From contig JBFLYA010000040.1 in NCBI GenBank assembly GCA_040757115.1, forward strand, positions 1 through 23,651: a DNA stretch of 23,651 nucleotides, written 5' to 3'. Below the pieces are notes generated by a model. It was given only the letters and a program-made list of their open reading frames with translations. It did not search any database and was not told the origin of the DNA. Both the position numbers and the translations under genes were made by a program. Shown piece by piece: positions 4,708 through 22,012 of the stretch. Numbering within the stretch: the first letter of the stretch is position 1; each line of letters starts with the position of its first letter. This DNA is from a bacterium. GTDB taxonomy: Bacteria; UBA9089; CG2-30-40-21; SBAY01.

Positions 4708-4949
4708 GTAACCGTTCACCGCAGAGACACAGAGAGGCAGAGAAAAAATTAAAATCTATCATCAGAGACAGAAATTTCCTTTTTTTGTGCATTTTGGGTC
4801 TTTCGTTATTTATTAATCTTTTAATACTTACTTTCGACTAACTGTTTTTAAGCATTTTTAAACACCGAAAAACGCGAAAAAAAGATATTTTCCTCTCTGT
4901 TTCTCTGCGTCTCTGCGTCTCTGCGGTAAAGGATTACCTGAACGGTTAC
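4708..4949. mobile_element. Palindromic element with GTAACCGTTCA ends
   Basis: The left end, GTAACCGTTCA (4708-4718), is the exact reverse complement of TGAACGGTTAC at 4939-4949. Inside these ends are wobbling arms: CACCGCAGAGACACAGAGAG on the left and CTCTGCGTCTCTGCGTCTCT on the right. The central AT-rich part (about 4745-4890) has no recognisable gene. The flanks read CCGTGCTT (left) and CCGTGCCC (right), a possible imperfect 8-bp target duplication. The same end sequence appears in the element at 21436-22012 and at 23359-23378. Confidence 0.75.
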
Positions 4950-6912: not shown

Positions 6913-7029
6913 GATTCTCCTGAAAATAGGTTATGGGACGCAGATTTTCGCAGATGAACAGGATTAAAATTAATTTTTTATTATTGTATTTCTATAGTTA
7001 TTTCCTTAGAGTCTCTTGATGTTTTTATA
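6913..7029. repeat. Dispersed repeat, inverted copy of 1-112
   Basis: Near-identical reverse complement of 1-97 (at 6933-7029), with weaker similarity to 6913. The gene-free stretch 6872-7135 also holds further ATCTGCG-type and CTCTGTGTCCATCTGCG-type words at about 7055-7130. No gene is seen between the end of the STAND gene and ispF. Confidence 0.9.
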
Positions 7030-7135
7030 GTGCCTTAGTAGTTTTTCTTTAAAATCTTGTAAATCCTGTAAATCTGCGTCCCATTAATTTTCATCGTCCT
7101 CTGTGTCCATCTGCGAAGAAAAATCTTGCCTCCCA

Positions 7136-10100
7136 TTACCCTTTTTCTATCTTAAACAAGCTCAGGGTGCCGTTCTGGTTGGCGGTGAGGATTAGGAGAT
7201 TGCCACTTTTATCCTCAGTGAGGCTTATACCCATCGGTATCCATAAAAGATGGATACACTGAATCTCTTTGCCGCTGGCTACATCCCATAGCCTGAGGGT
7301 ATTATCACTTGATGCCGAGAGGACGCTTTTGCCATCTATAGAGAAGGCACAACTCAACACCGCATCCGTATGTCCTGAGAACTGCCGCATCTCTTTGCCG
7401 CTGGCTACATTCCATAGCCTGAGGGTCCTATCCCTTGATGCCGAGAGGATGCTTTTGCCGTCGCCAGAGAAGGCACAACTCAACACCTCAGCCCTATGTC
7501 CTGAGAACTGCTGTATCTCTTTGCCGCTGGCTACATCCCATAGCCTGAGGGTCCTATCCCTTGATGCCGAGAGGATGCTTTTACCATCCGGAGAGAAGGC
7601 ACAACTTAACACCGCATCCGTATGTCCTGAGAACTGGCGCATCTCTTTGCCGCTGGCTACATCCCATAGCCTGAGGGTATTATCCCTTGATGCCGAGAGG
7701 ATGCTTTTGGCGTCGTTAGAGAAAGCACAACTCCACACATCATCCGTATGTCCTGAGAACTGGCGCATCTCTTTGCCGCTGGCTACATCCCATAGCCTGA
7801 GGGTGCTATCACTTGATGAAGAGAGGATGCTTTTGCCGTCATCAGAGAAGGCACAACTCAACACCCCAGCCGTATGTCCTGAGAACTGCCTCATCTCTTT
7901 ACCACTGGCTACATCCCATAGCCTGAGGGTCTTATCCCTTGATGCCGAGAGGATGCTTTTGCCGTCGCCAGAGAAGGCACAACTAAACACCACATCCGTA
8001 TGTCCTGAGAACTGCCTCATCTCTTTACCACTGGCTACATCCCATAGCCTGAGGGTTCTATCACTTGATGCCGAAAGGATACTTTTGCCATCGCCAGAGA
8101 AGGCACAACTCAACACATCATCCGTATGTCCTGAGAACTGGCGCATCTCTTTGCCTCTGGCTACATCCCATAGCCTGAGGGTTCTATCCCTTGATGCCGA
8201 AAGGATACTTTTGCCATCGCCAGAGAAGGCACAACTCAACACATCATCCGTATGTCCTAAGAACTTCCGCATCTCTTTGCCTCTGGCTACATCCCATAGC
8301 CTGAGGGTCTTATCACTTGATGCCGAGAGGATGCTTTTGCCATCGCCAGAGAAGGCACAACTCAACACCGCAGCCGTATGTCCTGAGAACTGGCGCATCT
8401 CTTTGCCTCTGGCTACATCCCATAGCCTGAGGGTTCTATCCCTTGATGCCGAGAGGATGCTTTTGCCGTCGCCAGAGAAGGCACAACTCAACACCGCATC
8501 CGTATGTCCTGAGAACTTCCGCAGCTCTTTGCCGCTGGCTACATCCCATAGCCTGAGGGTTCTATCCCTTGATGCCGAGAGGATGCTTTTGCCGTCGCCA
8601 GAGAAGGCACAACTCAACACCGCATCCGTATGTCCTGAGAACTTCCGCAGCTCTTTGCCGCTGGCTACATCCCATAGCCTGAGGGTTCTATCCCTTGATG
8701 CCGAGAGGATGCTTTTGCCGTCGCCAGAGAAGGCACAACTCAACACCGCATCCGTATGTCCTGAGAACTTCCGCAGCTCTTTGCCGCTGGCTACATCCCA
8801 TAGCCTGAGGGTCTTATCACTTGATGCCGAGAGGATGCTTTTGCCGTCCGGGGAGAAGACACAACCCGTCACCACATTATCATGTTTCAGGTTAGGTGAG
8901 CCAAAGAAACCTTGAAGGGACTTACCTACATTCGTTGAGTAATATCCAAAGTTTTTGTCCTCAGGATGGTATCCTTGGGTATCAAGACAAAGGACATTAG
9001 AATAGAAGAGAGAAGACTCATCCCGCCATTTCCTTTGCCAGGCATCAATCATCTCCTTTTGGACTATCTTCTCTAATAAGTTCATTCGTAGATTGAGCAA
9101 TTCAGAGGAGGTATCAAAGAAATTTTTAGCCGGGATGTAGGTTTCCAGCAATGTATTTCTGGATAGCCTGGATGAGCCATCAAAATGCCTTAAGGCATCA
9201 TTTAATACCCCTTTATCTTCACTCATAAGGACATCACTCATGGTTTTATATACCCATTCAGGTCTTTTCTTGCTTATCTCTTTTTCTTTTTCTTTTTGCG
9301 GTTTTATAGTTTGAAGTTTTTCCAGCTCCTCTTTCTCTATCCTTTCCATGCCGCATAAACAGCGGTATAAAAGTGAGGTATGGGCTAAATCCTTACCGTT
9401 TTTAAGCCCTGCAATGATACTATATCCTATCTCCCTATCCTTTTCAGAGGCAATAGAGAGGGTCTCAAGTCGATGGTCGATGTCTATCCGAGCAACCCCT
9501 TTAATGTCTATCCCTTTATTTATTGTTATCCATCTGGCGGCGAGAAATTCCATTACTGTAGAATGGAGGAAGGTTAACTCTTCATAGCCTGAAGGGATGA
9601 GGAGTTGGGTATTAATGAGTTCCGTAATCCAGTCATCTGCATCTTTCACCTCACTTTTCTCAATCTCGGCTTTGATAGTAGTCCGGTTGATGTCTCTACG
9701 AGGGGAGCCGCTTACCGATTCATAGAGGCATTGGTAGGATAGAGAAGAGAGGCAATCATATTGTTTTGCCGCCTCAGGTTTTTTTAACAGTGAATCTGGC
9801 TTTTTGGCTTCAATGAAGAATTCCCTTATCCTCTCAGGATATTCAAATTCCCTAAATTTTATTCTCTCCCATATTCGTAAGAGGAAGAACTTAACGAGGA
9901 TATCGAACATTACATATCTTCTTTCAATTTTCTCAAAAAACTGATAATATATCATCAGCAGGATAGCGGTAAGTGGTGTGCCGGCAATTCTTTTTACCAC
10001 CTCTTCCCTCCAGACAACCTCATCAAATCTTTTATAAAGTTCTGTCTCTTCACCATAAAAGCCTTTAACTAATTGCCGTAGTTGTTCTGTATCAAGTGAG

Positions 10101-11863
10101 GCAACCGTAAATATGGGGATATCATCGGTGTGGTAAACATCCTCAATCTTTCTTGAGGTAAGGAAGAGTTTATTTTTGTCCTGCTCTTTAATTTCTTTCA
10201 TCAGGTTTTTTATTATATCCATTATTATCTTGCGGTTTTCTAATGATGCTTCATCAAACCCATCCACATATAGGGCTAATGAATTATTTTCCCATTTTTG
10301 TAGGGCTTCATTTGTTGCTGTTTGCAAGGCAACTTCTTCATCTACAGTCAAGGTTTCCGGCTCTCTTTTAGGGAATAGGAAGCCAGAGAGGAGGTATGCT
10401 ATGGCAGAAGACCGCTCATATCTTGCCGATTCAGGTTTATGACCCATCCTTTCACACCATTTGCCAAAGTCTGGCAGTTCCCTGCAGGGCACAAAGATAG
10501 GTGTCTTTTCATCCTTGAAGGTAGAATGGGTAAAATAATGCAGGATAGTGGTCTTGCCTGCACCGGGAATGCCATAGATAAATCCTTTGTTAAATGTTTC
10601 AAATACCTCTTTGGCGGTATATGAGGTCTTTTCCTTTTCCTTCTCTTCCTCATATTTTCCCTTTACCTCTATACTCAATCCTCTGGGTAGGAAACCAGCT
10701 CTTTTGGACACACCTGTTTTTTGAGTAAGGGTTATATCTATGTTAAGATTGATAAAGTTTTGCTCAATGTCAATAGAGGGATACAATCCTGCCAGCACCG
10801 GGATAGTTTTTGATTTATCTTTAAGGGCTTGTAGTTTTGCCTCAAAGTCAGATAGCCTTGCTTCCTGTGGCAGGAAGAGGCGATGGAGGAAGACTTTTTG
10901 GGTTTGGGTAAATCCTTTTAGATGGAACTCGCCTAAGGGGACGGAACTGATATTATTTGGTTTAAGCTGGGCTTGTAATCCCTGAAATAAGGCATCGGTA
11001 ACGATTAATTCATCCTGCATTGCCTCTTTCTCTATTCTAAATGTTCGTATAGCCTCAGAGCCGGTTAAATCTATCTTCTTGCCTTTTTCATCAAGCCAAA
11101 ATTGGCAATAACCCAGATGTGCAATCATCCGCAATAGAACCTTGAAGCCAAACTTATCTTTTATCTGCCGCTCCCGAAACAAGGCAAGCATCACCTGGGT
11201 AAGTTCCTGCGTCTTATTTGAGTCGCCAAAAAACAGCACCCCATCACCGATAGACCTTATCCATTCAAAGCCATAATCTTCAACAACTTCTTTGGATTTC
11301 TGGTAATAGTAATCAAGGAATTGTTGGGTGTAGGAATGACCCAGTCTTTCAGATTGAGGAGTGAAATTGACAATATCTATGAGGCAGAGGATACCACATC
11401 CCTGTGCGGTATTAATCTTAAAATCAAAACTACCGCCTGTGCGTCTTGAGAATAAATCCGGTGCCTCTCTGGCAATCCGAACAAAGCCTGTATCCTGAAC
11501 CCAGAAGATAAAGTTATGGTTATACTCTGCTAACACATCCCGTGAGAGATTCAGGTTGCTTAGTGCGTCGGTCGGAGCATCATCCCAGCCGTAGAAAGAG
11601 ACTACCGCAGGCGGGTCAGTAGGTAGCTTGTTGTCTCTAAGTAGCTGTAATGGGTCTGGGTTATCTGAGGTGATGTAGAACTCGTGGAATGACAAGAAGG
11701 GTAATTTTTGGTTGTGTCTCTCTTCTTTAATTCTCTCAATGATTCGCTTTGGGACTTCTTCCTGATTATAGACAGCGAGGACAAACTTACAGGTTTTAGC
11801 AACATCTATAAGAGTATAGAGCCTATTAAATTCTTCTTCAAATTGACTAATCTTTCCGTTCAT
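7136..11863 (-). CDS. STAND protein: cyclase-like domain, NACHT NTPase, 14 WD40 blades
   Basis: A 1575-residue multidomain protein. Residues 1-150 form an N-terminal domain ending in REAPDLFSRRTGGSFDF, resembling a domain I recall from other large STAND/TPR proteins. Residues about 156-330 are a class III nucleotide cyclase-like domain: metal Asp163 in LIDIVNFT, Asp207 in SIGDG, and a closing LGEFHLKGF motif; the usual catalytic Asn of the VNxAxR motif is not evident (AIRTFR). Residues about 425-640 are a NACHT NTPase: Walker A GIPGAGKTT (431-439), Walker B LYVDGFDEA (531-539), LTSR (568-571). A helical region contains a FLHSTVMEFLAARW motif. Residues about 990-1575 are 13 near-identical 42-residue WD40 blades plus one degenerate blade. 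The ATG has AAGGA 6 nt upstream. STAND proteins are ligand-triggered switches, often in phage defence; here the WD40 array would sense and the cyclase domain would signal (inference). Confidence 0.9.
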   Translation of the reverse strand: MNGKISQFEEEFNRLYTLIDVAKTCKFVLAVYNQEEVPKRIIERIKEERHNQKLPFLSFHEFYITSDNPDPLQLLRDNKLPTDPPAVVSFYGWDDAPTDALSNLNLSRDVLAEYNHNFIFWVQDTGFVRIAREAPDLFSRRTGGSFDFKINTAQGCGILCLIDIVNFTPQSERLGHSYTQQFLDYYYQKSKEVVEDYGFEWIRSIGDGVLFFGDSNKTQELTQVMLALFRERQIKDKFGFKVLLRMIAHLGYCQFWLDEKGKKIDLTGSEAIRTFRIEKEAMQDELIVTDALFQGLQAQLKPNNISSVPLGEFHLKGFTQTQKVFLHRLFLPQEARLSDFEAKLQALKDKSKTIPVLAGLYPSIDIEQNFINLNIDITLTQKTGVSKRAGFLPRGLSIEVKGKYEEEKEKEKTSYTAKEVFETFNKGFIYGIPGAGKTTILHYFTHSTFKDEKTPIFVPCRELPDFGKWCERMGHKPESARYERSSAIAYLLSGFLFPKREPETLTVDEEVALQTATNEALQKWENNSLALYVDGFDEASLENRKIIMDIIKNLMKEIKEQDKNKLFLTSRKIEDVYHTDDIPIFTVASLDTEQLRQLVKGFYGEETELYKRFDEVVWREEVVKRIAGTPLTAILLMIYYQFFEKIERRYVMFDILVKFFLLRIWERIKFREFEYPERIREFFIEAKKPDSLLKKPEAAKQYDCLSSLSYQCLYESVSGSPRRDINRTTIKAEIEKSEVKDADDWITELINTQLLIPSGYEELTFLHSTVMEFLAARWITINKGIDIKGVARIDIDHRLETLSIASEKDREIGYSIIAGLKNGKDLAHTSLLYRCLCGMERIEKEELEKLQTIKPQKEKEKEISKKRPEWVYKTMSDVLMSEDKGVLNDALRHFDGSSRLSRNTLLETYIPAKNFFDTSSELLNLRMNLLEKIVQKEMIDAWQRKWRDESSLFYSNVLCLDTQGYHPEDKNFGYYSTNVGKSLQGFFGSPNLKHDNVVTGCVFSPDGKSILSASSDKTLRLWDVASGKELRKFSGHTDAVLSCAFSGDGKSILSASRDRTLRLWDVASGKELRKFSGHTDAVLSCAFSGDGKSILSASRDRTLRLWDVASGKELRKFSGHTDAVLSCAFSGDGKSILSASRDRTLRLWDVARGKEMRQFSGHTAAVLSCAFSGDGKSILSASSDKTLRLWDVARGKEMRKFLGHTDDVLSCAFSGDGKSILSASRDRTLRLWDVARGKEMRQFSGHTDDVLSCAFSGDGKSILSASSDRTLRLWDVASGKEMRQFSGHTDVVFSCAFSGDGKSILSASRDKTLRLWDVASGKEMRQFSGHTAGVLSCAFSDDGKSILSSSSDSTLRLWDVASGKEMRQFSGHTDDVWSCAFSNDAKSILSASRDNTLRLWDVASGKEMRQFSGHTDAVLSCAFSPDGKSILSASRDRTLRLWDVASGKEIQQFSGHRAEVLSCAFSGDGKSILSASRDRTLRLWNVASGKEMRQFSGHTDAVLSCAFSIDGKSVLSASSDNTLRLWDVASGKEIQCIHLLWIPMGISLTEDKSGNLLILTANQNGTLSLFKIEKG
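7266..8890 (-). repeat. 126-bp tandem repeats encoding WD40 blades
   Basis: Thirteen units with a period of exactly 126 bp (42 codons) lie in frame inside the STAND gene. Successive units at about 8503-8628 and 8629-8754 look identical base for base. The others differ at few codons, mainly after GHT, at the residue after SAS, before TLRLW and in the K-E-[LMI]-[RQ]-[KQ] segment. High identity makes the array prone to unit gain, loss and gene conversion. Confidence 0.93.
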
Positions 11864-12043: not shown

Positions 12044-12108
12044 TAAACTTTGTGCGACCTTCGACAAGCTCAGGGTCACATAGTAAGCCTGCCAAGCCAT
12101 TTTTTTAA

Positions 12109-12570
12109 CCTGTGCAATCAATAATTCACCACGGAGACACAGAGGCACAGAGAAAAATTAACAGACAAGTCTCTTGAGGCCGTCTTTTAAAACAGGCACA
12201 TTAAAATTCATAATAAGACCAATTTTAATCCCGGACAATCGTAAATAAGTCAACAGTTGTGCAGTATGAATTGGTAGTATGTCCTCGACTACTTTAATCT
12301 CAAGAATAACCTTTTCTTCGACTACAATATCAATTCGATACCCACAGTCAAGTTTGATTCCTTTGTATTCAAGAGGAAGAGGTCTTTGCCGTTCAAATTT
12401 CAAACCACTTAAATGAAGCTCGTGACAAAGGCATTCTTCATAAGCTGATTCCAATAGACCAGGCCCCAAATACCGATGAACTTCTATTGCCGCTCCAATT
12501 ATTTGCTCTGTAAGTTCTTTTTCTAAAATCATTACTCCGTGCCTCCGTGTCTCTGTGGTGATTGCACAGG
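12109..12570. mobile_element. GxxExxY cassette with terminal inverted repeats
   Basis: The ends are perfect inverted copies: CCTGTGCAATCA (12109-12120) and TGATTGCACAGG (12559-12570). Just inside them, CACCACGGAGACACAGAGGC at 12127-12146 faces the inverted GCCTCCGTGTCTCTGTGGTG at 12541-12560 (two mismatches). The only gene inside is the GxxExxY gene. The cassette lies at the 3' end of ispD: the last 12 ispD codons and its stop are read from the terminal repeat, and the GGAGGCACGGAG motif of the repeat serves as ribosome binding site for the GxxExxY gene. I see no clear target duplication. Confidence 0.75.
12158..12532 (-). CDS. GxxExxY protein (PD-(D/E)XK-like)
   Basis: This 124-residue protein has the family-defining motif Gly25-x-x-Glu28-x-x-Tyr31 in [14 protein letters not shown]. 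It also carries a PD-(D/E)XK-type nuclease signature: Asp68 in [11 protein letters not shown] and Glu78-x-Lys80 in ILEIKVVE, then [18 protein letters not shown] and a C-terminal [15 protein letters not shown]. It is full length for the family. The ATG overlaps the ispD stop (TAATG). No biochemical role is established to my knowledge; a nuclease activity is inferred from the motif. Both sides of the gene are inverted repeats, and a decayed relative at 17220-17333 has the same setting, which suggests a link between the protein and the repeats. Confidence 0.92.
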
Positions 12571-13281
12571 TCGAATCCCTTTATTTCCCCTTATTTTTCT
12601 ATCCTTTAATATTGCCTTTGCGACTAATAGGTCATAAGGTACGGTAATTTTGATGTTCTCATAGTCTCCTTTTACCCATTTTACCTTCCCGCCCAATCGT
12701 CTAATTAATAAGGCATCATCTGTGGCATAAAAATTATCCTGATATGCCTTTTCGTAAGCATCTCTGATTAAATCATATTTAAAGACCTGTGGTGTTTGAA
12801 TCATCACTAAACTATCTCTATCCCAGGTTTCTTCAATCCACTCACCACCATTTATTGATTTAATCGTATCTACTGGCGTAACACCAGGTATCGCTCCGCC
12901 TGTCTGTCTTGCCTCAGCAATAGTTTCATCTATTAACCGCTGGGTAATAAATGGTCTGGCTCCATCATGAATAAGAACTAATTCTGTCTCAGGAAGAACT
13001 TTTCTTAATCCATTATAGACCGAATCCTGTCGCTGTTCCCCGCCCGGGATAACCTCAGTTACCTTTATAAACCTATATTTTTCTACAATCTCTCGCTGAG
13101 TATAGGCAATATCATCTTGTGGAACAACGAGTATAATGTAATCAATAGACATTGATTCAGATAAAATTTTTAAAGGATAGTAAATCAATGGATGATTGTT
13201 AATCATAATAAATGATTTAGGTATTTGGCTACTCATTCTTTCGCCTTTACCTGCGGCAACCAGGATAGCACAAATCTTCAT
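12532..13281 (-). CDS. ispD: 2-C-methyl-D-erythritol 4-phosphate cytidylyltransferase
   Basis: This 249-residue enzyme joins CTP to MEP in the non-mevalonate isoprenoid pathway. The N-terminal nucleotide-binding motif is [19 protein letters not shown] (residues 6-24; Lys22 in PK). Further landmarks are the [10 protein letters not shown] block, GVTPVDTIK, and the TDDALLIRR segment. The C-terminus ([12 protein letters not shown]) is not IspD-like: it is translated from the terminal repeat of the adjoining GxxExxY cassette, so the native stop has been lost or displaced. The start has AAGGAGA about 5 nt before the ATG, preceded by a GGTAAC-type repeat. Confidence 0.96.
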
Positions 13282-13341: not shown

Positions 13342-13558
13342 AAAAATTCGGTGGTGTCTGAAAATAACTCTAATAGTGAAATCTATGCAGATTTGGTGTC
13401 CAAAAGGGGATAAGGAGATAAAAGGAGATATGGAGATTATTCATTGTAATTTGCAAAATTTTAGAATGAATTTATCTCCTAATCTCCATAATCCCCATAT
13501 CTCCTTTTCTTACACTATTTCAACCTTTATGCTATATTAAGACACCACCAAAAATTCG
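13342..13558. mobile_element. MITE-like element with perfect 8-9 bp target duplication
   Basis: Inverted ends GGTGGTGTCT (13350-13359) and AGACACCACC (13540-13549) enclose about 200 bp. Both sides carry AAAAATTC(G), at 13342-13350 and 13550-13558, a perfect direct duplication of 8-9 bp. The inner arms are wobbling tandem motifs: GGGGATAAGGAGATAAAAGG on the left and ATCTCCATAATCCCCATATC on the right. Subterminal AATAGTGAAA and TACACTATTTC also pair. No gene is credible inside. Confidence 0.85.
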
Positions 13559-13686: not shown

Positions 13687-13864
13687 TAATAAGTCAGTTA
13701 TTTGGGGGAATGAAAATAGTAGGCAAGTAGGTAGTAGGGAAGTAGGAAAGGGATAAAGGATGTGCACGGTATTCCTCTTCTGGGGACAATGTCTCCCCCT
13801 TTCCTACTCTCCTACTCTCCTACTTCCTACTTTCAGGAGAATCCCCCATTTCACTGACCCATTA
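13687..13864. mobile_element. MITE-like element, sister copy of 1226-1430
   Basis: The left end is TAATAAGTCAGTTATTTGGG; the reverse complement of the right end is TAATGGGTCAGTGAAATGGG. It shares the AAATAGTAGGCAAGTAGGTA block, the GGGATAAAGGATGTGCAC centre and the CTACTTCCTACTTTCAGGAG right arm with 1226-1430, but lacks the 24-bp inner insert of that copy. The flanks read TGTTTACTG (left) and TGTTTACCG (right, one base further out), a possible 9-bp duplication with one mismatch. The remaining stretch 13559-13686 shows nothing I can identify. Confidence 0.75.
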
Positions 13865-17202: not shown

Positions 17203-17363
17203 ACCACGAAGAACACGAAGTGAAATTTGATGAAATATCTAATGAAGTTAGCAAATATTAAAGTTGGCTTGTTATGTTGATAAATTTCAATGTAGAAAGA
17301 TTGAAAGAAGGCATAAAAAGATTTGTTCTGTAACATCTCCCTGCCCTTCGTGCTCTTCGTGGT
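17203..17363. mobile_element. Decayed GxxExxY cassette with inverted repeats
   Basis: ACCACGAAGAACACGAAG (17203-17220) and CTTCGTGCTCTTCGTGGT (17346-17363) are inverted copies with two mismatches. Between them lies only the remnant of a GxxExxY gene. Right of the cassette, GAATAGTTACC resembles the GTAAC-TTCACC ends of other elements. The rest of the gap to 17512 holds TCCGTGTCTATCTATGGCTG and CTTTGTGTCTGTGCGTCTTT words of the same wobbling type and no gene. Confidence 0.65.
17220..17333 (+). pseudogene. GxxExxY protein gene, internally deleted
   Basis: From GTG at 17220 the reading gives KFDEISNEV, like the start of GxxExxY proteins. Shortly after comes IKVGLL in one frame and then INFNVERLKEGIKRFVL-stop in another. 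The latter aligns with the C-terminus of the intact protein at 12158-12532 ([20 protein letters not shown]). The central part, including the GxxExxY motif and the nuclease-like residues, is gone, and a frameshift separates IKVGLL from NFNV. The remnant is on the plus strand and lies inside inverted repeats. Confidence 0.7.
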
Positions 17364-17512
17364 GAATAGTTACCAAAAGGATTAAAAATCAGTGTTTCAT
17401 CCGTGTCTATCTATGGCTGAATAATTACGATTTATTTTACATTTTTCTTTGTGTCTGTGCGTCTTTGTGTGATTATTATCCTTCTGAAAATATCCACATA
17501 GGGAGTTAAAAG

Positions 17513-18946: not shown

Positions 18947-19094
18947 CCCACAATTTTTACTGGACACCGTGAAGAGTGATAATTCACAATTCACAATTGA
19001 CAATTCACCATTCACCATTTTAAGGAGATTTAGGGAAGAAATTGTGAATGGTGAATTGTGAATGAATGTAACATTGTCCACTAAAACTTATGGG
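18947..19094. mobile_element. Palindromic element with CCCA-TGGACA ends
   Basis: Left CCCACAATTTTTACTGGACA and right TGTCCACTAAAACTTATGGG are inverted with a few mismatches. The inner arms are wobbling motifs: ATTCACAATTCACAATTGAC on the left, ATTGTGAATGGTGAATTGTG on the right. No clear target duplication and no gene. Confidence 0.65.
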
Positions 19095-21435: not shown

Positions 21436-22012
21436 GTAATCGTTCAGGTGTAAGTAAGGGAAAATGGAAAAGTAGGGAAAAAGGGGAAAAATATTAAAGA
21501 ATTTCATTTCAAATTTTTGGAGTTCTCAATTCCTGAAGCTGTCAGGAACAGGTTTATTGAGGATTGTGTGCTTTGTCAGTATCACAGAATCGAAGAGCAA
21601 GCGAATCGTCTATAGCAGTTATTAGTCAAAATTTTACTCAGGGGGGATAAGTAAAAAATCCCAAATCCCAAGCACCAAATCTCAAATAAGCACCAAATTC
21701 CACATACCAAAAAGCGAATTAGAGATTAGTGAATTAGAGATTAGATTTTACTAATTCGCTAATTCGCTTAATTCACTAATTCACTAAATGGAATTTGGAA
21801 TTTGTGATTTGGAATTTCATAGCCATATTTGGGGCAAATTTCGATTAATAAGTGCTATAAATCGGGGACTCCGTTTAAAAAAAGGAACTTATTTTTGCAA
21901 AAACTATAATGCGGGAACGACCAGAACAACTTTCAAATTCCTATACATAAAAATAAATCTCCCATTTTTCCATTATTTCCCCTTTTCCCTTAATTACACC
22001 TTGAACGGTTAC
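21436..22012. mobile_element. Composite palindromic element with GTAAYCGTTCA ends
   Basis: The left end is GTAATCGTTCAGGTGTAAG and the reverse complement of the right end is GTAACCGTTCAAGGTGTAA, followed by wobbling GGGAAAATGGAAAAGTAGGG-like arms on both sides. A second palindrome is nested at about 21657-21822, with AATTAGAGATTAGTGAATTAG on the left, ATTCGCTAATTCGCTTAATT on the right, and ATTCCA/GGAATTTGG words outside. A decayed coding fragment lies at 21454-21615. The ends match those of the element at 4708-4949. No transposase seen. Confidence 0.65.
21454..21615 (+). pseudogene. Coding fragment inside the element
   Basis: An open frame without a start codon reads KEFHFKFLEFSIPEAVRNRF, then IEDCVLCQYHRIEEQANRL-stop. 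The amphipathic character and the CxxC pair look like genuine protein rather than noise, but I do not recognise a family. It may be the C-terminus of a decayed gene. Confidence 0.25.

Follow-up and report, generated by a model that had tools for sequence, protein, structure and literature searches.

The window, the whole 23,651-nt stretch of DNA analysed here, is contig C40 of a 4.3-Mb genome (G000) in 462 contigs. It contains a compact cassette delimited by two outer inverted ends, ACCTGTGCAATCA on the plus strand (12108–12120) and its partner TGATTGCACAGGT on the minus strand (12559–12571), which are 100% complementary over 13 bp. The first-pass annotation had described these ends as perfectly inverted, which is correct, but had given their length as 12 bp. 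The end type is that of ISKra4/ISLre2-like insertion sequences (IS) and is the same as in a transposase-carrying element on contig C221 (L080:653–2328). The exact outer 13-mer occurs only twice in the 4.3 Mb, both times at this cassette, and 22 more copies with one mismatch are found in the genome, compared with none for a reversed control pattern. Inside these ends lie two inner arms. The left arm (12125–12152, plus strand) consists of TTCACC followed by three CACRGAG words and has homologs at GxxExxY loci in many phyla; the right arm (12535–12560, minus strand) reads CACCACAGAGACACGGAGGCACGGAG. Superimposing CACCACGGAGACACAGAGGCACAGAG at 12127–12152 on its inverted partner at 12535–12560 gives 23/26 identical positions, and the pair, TTCACCACGGAGACACAGAGGCACAGAG / CACCACAGAGACACGGAGGCACGGAG, is built of the word CACRGAG. 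The sole open reading frame between the arms is a GxxExxY gene of 124 codons (12158–12532, minus strand), whose Shine-Dalgarno-like purines are contributed by the right arm, directly adjoining the start codon (...GGAGGCACGGAGTA-ATG). Both the arms around a single gene and the repeat as a source of its ribosome-binding site had been proposed from the letters alone.

The cassette sits at the 3′ end of ispD (12532–13281, minus strand; TIGR00453), whose stop codon overlaps the GxxExxY start codon in the string TAATG. The last 12 codons of ispD (12535–12571) come from the repeat, which is read through from 12571 to 12535. IspD of the congener G005 is 98% identical, with the match limited to residues 1–234, and the DNA of the two genomes differs right after the ispD body, in agreement with the earlier suggestion that the repeat rewrote the end of this gene. 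Because ispD of G005 then runs into different DNA, comparison with this congener did not yield a clean empty site corresponding to the window copy, and a clean target duplication is likewise absent at 12108/12571. We see it as about an even call that the window copy is a word-palindrome cassette that acquired ISKra4/ISLre2-type ends and now lies at the 3′ end of ispD.

GxxExxY proteins form an uncharacterised family that is frequent in metagenomic genomes. The window protein belongs to it, matching the TIGR04256 GxxExxY profile over its full length (E = 2.9e-46, 156.6 bits, curated cut-off 35 bits), and it also matches PF13366 (PDDEXK_3; E = 1.5e-43). In an alignment of 80 homologs, residues D68 and K80 are invariant, and E78, Q92, and Y96 are conserved in at least 90%, which upholds the PD-(D/E)XK-like pattern D68/E78-x-K80 reported in the first-pass annotation. 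An AlphaFold model computed with the 80 homologs as input has a pLDDT of 95. Its top structural match is Cas4 SSO0001 (Z 9.9 over 96 residues, 2.6 Å), and many other PD-(D/E)XK folds also match, among them archaeal Hjc (Z 7.0). We take D68, E78-x-K80, and Q92-x-x-x-Y96 to fit the RecB/Cas4 arrangement. With a RecB/Cas4-type PD-(D/E)XK fold in the model and the D, ExK, and QxxxY residues in the alignment, we predict the protein to be a minimal nuclease of this type. It is much smaller than Cas4 and RecB nucleases, at 124 amino acids, and its match to Cas4 profiles is weak (E 0.01). Solved structures include no sequence relative. The comparison with known defence genes returned these weak Cas4 matches only, and we rejected the assignment of the protein to a known defence gene. 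Some moderately diverged GxxExxY copies differ with dN/dS of 0.10–0.11, pointing to purifying selection; between close paralogs the ratio is 0.2–0.5, a range resting on few changes. Our literature search on the TIGR04256/PF13366 family and on the repeat strings returned two incidental mentions and no link to a function, mobility, or repeats.

The association between gene and arms extends far beyond this locus. We scored inverted repeats between 150-bp flanks, counting a score of at least 12 as positive, in the best 80 GTDB species loci (78 scored) and in 33 loci taken one per genome. Flanking inverted repeats are present at 49/78 and 20/33 loci, respectively (61–63%), against 4/568 (0.7%) other open reading frames in the same loci, 9% of swapped flanks, and 0% elsewhere. 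Most GxxExxY genes thus do have such repeats, contrary to the outcome that the first-pass annotation had named as refuting its idea. By record titles, the loci scoring positive come from at least 13 phyla. The arms consist of two to four quasi-periodic words of 7–9 bp, mostly CRCRRAG, and end outward at a TT[CA]A|CC (TTMACC) boundary. Other words (AATCTGCG, GACAGGAT, CACGAAT, CGCCGAT) occur beside CRCRRAG or in genomes that lack it. Core elements in other phyla have TTMACC ends and no IS ends, and 37/40 are without target duplication; we therefore rejected IS ends as a feature of all copies. Variation in the arms follows that of the protein (Mantel r 0.26) more closely than variation in distant flanks does (0.09). 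The correlation is significant but modest; distant flanks carry some signal, and linkage alone could give the same result. Viral contigs contained two GxxExxY loci only.

The same words are also dispersed as repeats lacking the gene. Counts of the pattern CCRCRRAGN{1,3}CRCRRAGN{1,3}CRCRRAG in 290 genomes, most of them from different families, were compared with TIGR04256 matches, taking at least two sites as presence. Repeat and gene occur together in 47 genomes, the repeat only in 9, the gene only in 23, and neither in 211 (odds ratio 48, p = 1e-27, without phylogenetic correction). Outside the phylum of the window genome, the corresponding counts are 36, 7, 22, and 206 (p = 1e-22, again uncorrected for phylogeny); within it, ACCACRGAG repeats are found in 12/13 gene carriers and 0/6 others. 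All 26 genomes with at least 20 sites carry GxxExxY. The correspondence has exceptions on both sides: 9 genomes have repeats with no detected gene, and in 23/70 genomes with GxxExxY, CRCRRAG sites number zero or one; some of these genomes use other words, and others show none. The gene is single in some genomes (e.g., G065) and multi-copy in G000 and G005. One complete 5.0-Mb genome has a single GxxExxY gene and 127 dispersed sites; those sampled are solo arms built of the words that flank this gene. Gene-less hairpins of 55–130 bp are found in other phyla.

The window itself contains several such palindromes. The one at 4708–4949 is gene-less and combines IS66-type ends, GTAACCGTTCA, with the same inner words as the cassette (CCGCAGAGACACAGAG); a gene-less inverted word pair, ACGCAGATTTTCGCAGATGAACAGGAT, lies at 6939–7115, and a third gene-less palindrome (13420–13508) is made of GGAGATA words, which in this genome belong to another GxxExxY clade. 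Between the ACCACGAAGAACACGAAG words of the palindrome at 17203–17373 lies what is left of a GxxExxY C-terminus with a broken frame (INFNVERLKEGIKRFVL by eye). Further gene-less inverted word palindromes (AAGTAGG, ATTCACA, GGGAAAA) at 1286–1398, 13718–13831, 18981–19063, and 21446–22001 have no known partner gene, and the same holds for a GxxExxY partner of the genome's word classes AAGTAGG, ATAGTTTATAGTTG, and ATTCACA. Between these features, positions 7136–11863 encode a protein of 1575 aa in which an NTPase region and WD40-type repeats are apparent; its match to NACHT antiphage proteins (EruA, 1e-06) is weak and below the cut-off. The genome as a whole has 62–68 GxxExxY matches, intact and truncated. 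Most of the copies inspected lie between inverted repeats, and their inner arms vary with the protein clade (GCAGAGACGCAGAG, GGGGATAAGGGGATAAAGGAGATA, GGAGAAATGGGGAAAAGGGAGAA, CGCAAAGGACGCAAAGG, CACGAAGAGCACGAAG). A census of 373 kb of its sequence identified 34 inverted word-arm pairs with arms within 1.5 kb: one encloses an intact GxxExxY gene, five enclose remnants, and 28 are empty, with no enclosed open reading frame over 49 aa otherwise. With GxxExxY or its remnants in 6/34 pairs and other genes in none, the repeats do not enclose random genes as often as GxxExxY, which the first-pass annotation had named as a second refuting outcome.

Outer ends in this genome fall into two main types, GTAACNNTTCA and ACCTGTG[A/C]AAT, the latter being that of the window copy. 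They bring in the main rival explanation, possible though rather doubtful as a full account, in which the unit is a mobile insertion cassette with GxxExxY as passenger, mobilised in trans by IS66-type and ISKra4/ISLre2-like transposases. On this view, MITEs without the gene derive from it by deletion, and what keeps the gene in place is a benefit to itself or to the host. Such passenger movement clearly contributes in this genus. IS66-type ends (end type GTAACNNTTCA, pattern GTAACYRTTCASS) number 975 in the genome vs 2 for a control pattern; a decayed IS66 element (L075) has the same ends, and the ACCTGTG type is common to the L080 element, whose ISKra4/ISLre2-like transposase scores below the curated cut-off. 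IS66 duplicates 8 bp of its target (PMC3281130), and 8-bp duplications, with no other length, flank 13/41 IS66-type end pairs. Copies with GTAAC ends thus have all the hallmarks of an IS66-type mobile insertion cassette, namely GTAA-starting ends, the 8-bp duplication, and a cognate though decayed transposase; the window copy does not. With 975 IS66-type ends in 4.3 Mb and one recognisable, decayed full-length IS66, the MITE load is very large, and the assembly has no evident live transposase.

Comparison with G005 revealed empty and filled versions of four insertions, three with GTAAC ends (L363:1090–1437, duplication GAAAAATA; L371:756–1009, GAAATACT; L398:13043–13281, AATTTATC) and one with ACCTGTG ends (L331:4000–4174, AAAATATT). 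Empty sites of the kind that the first-pass annotation had called for are therefore found between the two congeners at other loci, and they agree with passenger movement. IS66-type or ISKra4/ISLre2-like ends accompany the movement of many copies in the genus, so a classical transposase accounts for at least some of the mobility there, and GxxExxY could be cargo. The genus copies resemble mobile insertion cassettes and passenger-gene MITEs in having IS-type ends and no transposase inside, with 8-bp duplications for the IS66-type ends. They differ from them in that one cargo family, GxxExxY, recurs with unrelated outer ends, and that the arms in other phyla are without IS ends and target duplications, which together with the rarity of other cargo speaks against the passenger explanation. 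So does the behaviour of the two repeat layers, as inner arms track the protein clade whereas outer ends switch: the window protein and its 64–69% identical relatives have the same inner words but different outer ends, so the IS-type outer ends look secondary.

One orthologous site captures the relationship between cassette and palindrome. In G005, arms of CGCAAAGG words enclose a GxxExxY gene (L331:11783–12172), and in G000 the same place (L064:2406–2461) is a 56-bp gene-less hairpin with the same arms. The flanks are collinear over 1267 and 467 bp, and IS ends are absent. With or without the gene, this is thus a single element in two states; the change was probably an internal deletion rather than a gain. 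On a Sphingomonas plasmid (L312; NZ_CP155749.1 482397–483738), a GxxExxY gene with a weak upstream arm only lies between fabD and fabG, and a relative has 436 bp less in the corresponding stretch. It is very improbable that the arms are merely expression or transcript-end signals, a ribosome-binding site upstream and a hairpin downstream, unrelated to mobility. Here and at several homologous genes the upstream arm does provide Shine-Dalgarno purines, but hundreds of gene-less copies, presence and absence at orthologous sites, and the precise hairpin replacing a cassette argue otherwise, and the dispersed gene-less copies largely refute such signals as a complete explanation.

GxxExxY is not the only gene packaged in this way. 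A four-helix-bundle gene (TIGR02436, Avd/S23-like) lies between inverted GCAGAGA word arms at L067:18357–18881 in this genome; it is the one such cassette in a wider scan covering 395 kb. Of 11 TIGR02436 genes on cyanobacterial and Azospirillum plasmids, 8 lie between inverted word repeats scoring at least 15, mostly of GCAGGGGA words. We therefore rejected GxxExxY as the only cargo. The phenomenon is wider than GxxExxY, whose uniqueness is weakened because TIGR02436 genes are packaged likewise, and a nuclease-specific role does not explain these similar palindromes. Four-helix-bundle genes between arms would fit a different agent, in which a RAYT (HuH Y1 transposase) or another enzyme spreads the word palindromes and carries both gene families along. 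A REP-associated tyrosine transposase gene (NF047646) is present in the genome (L066:13378–13842), and REPINs are similar inverted doublets (PMC3116915). We nevertheless consider this improbable: it is one gene, met by chance in 395 kb, yet many unrelated word classes coexist, and the arms do not start with the conserved GTAG tetranucleotide that defines TnpAREP substrates at the palindrome (PMC8266576).

The closest known organisation is that of REPtrons, in which RAYT/TnpAREP genes are associated with REP/REPIN palindromes (PMC3116915, PMC8266576). As in REPtrons, inverted palindromic repeats stand on both sides of a gene and are dispersed without it as hairpin doublets, the repeat type follows the gene clade, and core elements have no clear target duplication. 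Unlike in REPtrons, the enclosed protein has a PD-(D/E)XK fold rather than that of an HuH Y1 transposase, and the arms are periodic runs of CRCRRAG words ending in TTMACC rather than carrying GTAG. The gene, which in REPtrons is present as a single copy, is single in some genomes here and can be multi-copy in others. We do not classify the GxxExxY cassette as a REPtron despite its similar organisation, because it lacks both the HuH enzyme and the GTAG tetranucleotide.

The gene and its repeats form a unit that recurs across phyla and has gene-less derivatives. The reading we find most likely, with middling confidence, is a RAYT/REP-like partnership that employs a non-HuH nuclease. Gene-repeat co-occurrence and the lack of IS ends elsewhere make action of the nuclease on the arms the most economical reading. 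The GxxExxY nuclease would recognise the arms, probably in hairpin or single-stranded form, and would cut or trim them near the TTMACC boundary. The cut arms would then be copied or re-inserted without target duplication, a functional parallel to RAYT and REP with another fold, and internal deletion of the cassette would generate the gene-less palindromes. In this genus, cassettes and hairpins have also gained IS66-type or ISKra4/ISLre2-like outer ends, and those with IS66-type ends insert with 8-bp duplications. The first-pass annotation had proposed GxxExxY as a RAYT-like mover or processor of these repeats. That idea gains from the general gene-repeat association and from the dispersed gene-less repeats that co-occur with the gene; on the other side, the TIGR02436 cargo weakens the uniqueness of the pairing, and IS-type transposase ends are involved in the genus.

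Rather more tentatively, the cassettes may represent an element class present in many phyla, in which a RecB/Cas4-type GxxExxY protein recognises and propagates inverted DNA-word arrays, a PD-(D/E)XK counterpart of REP/RAYT and maybe one of several gene-word pairings, the four-helix-bundle genes being another. Our analysis suggests that gene and repeats form a partnership, overlooked so far, which spreads through genomes. The gene-repeat link provides a testable substrate for GxxExxY and a candidate enzyme for the word-repeat palindromes that abound in many environmental bacteria. If true, the gene-word partnership would explain many spurious repeat-encoded protein ends, including that of IspD here, and repeat-nuclease partnerships of the REP/RAYT kind would have arisen with an unrelated fold and would shape genomes across many phyla.
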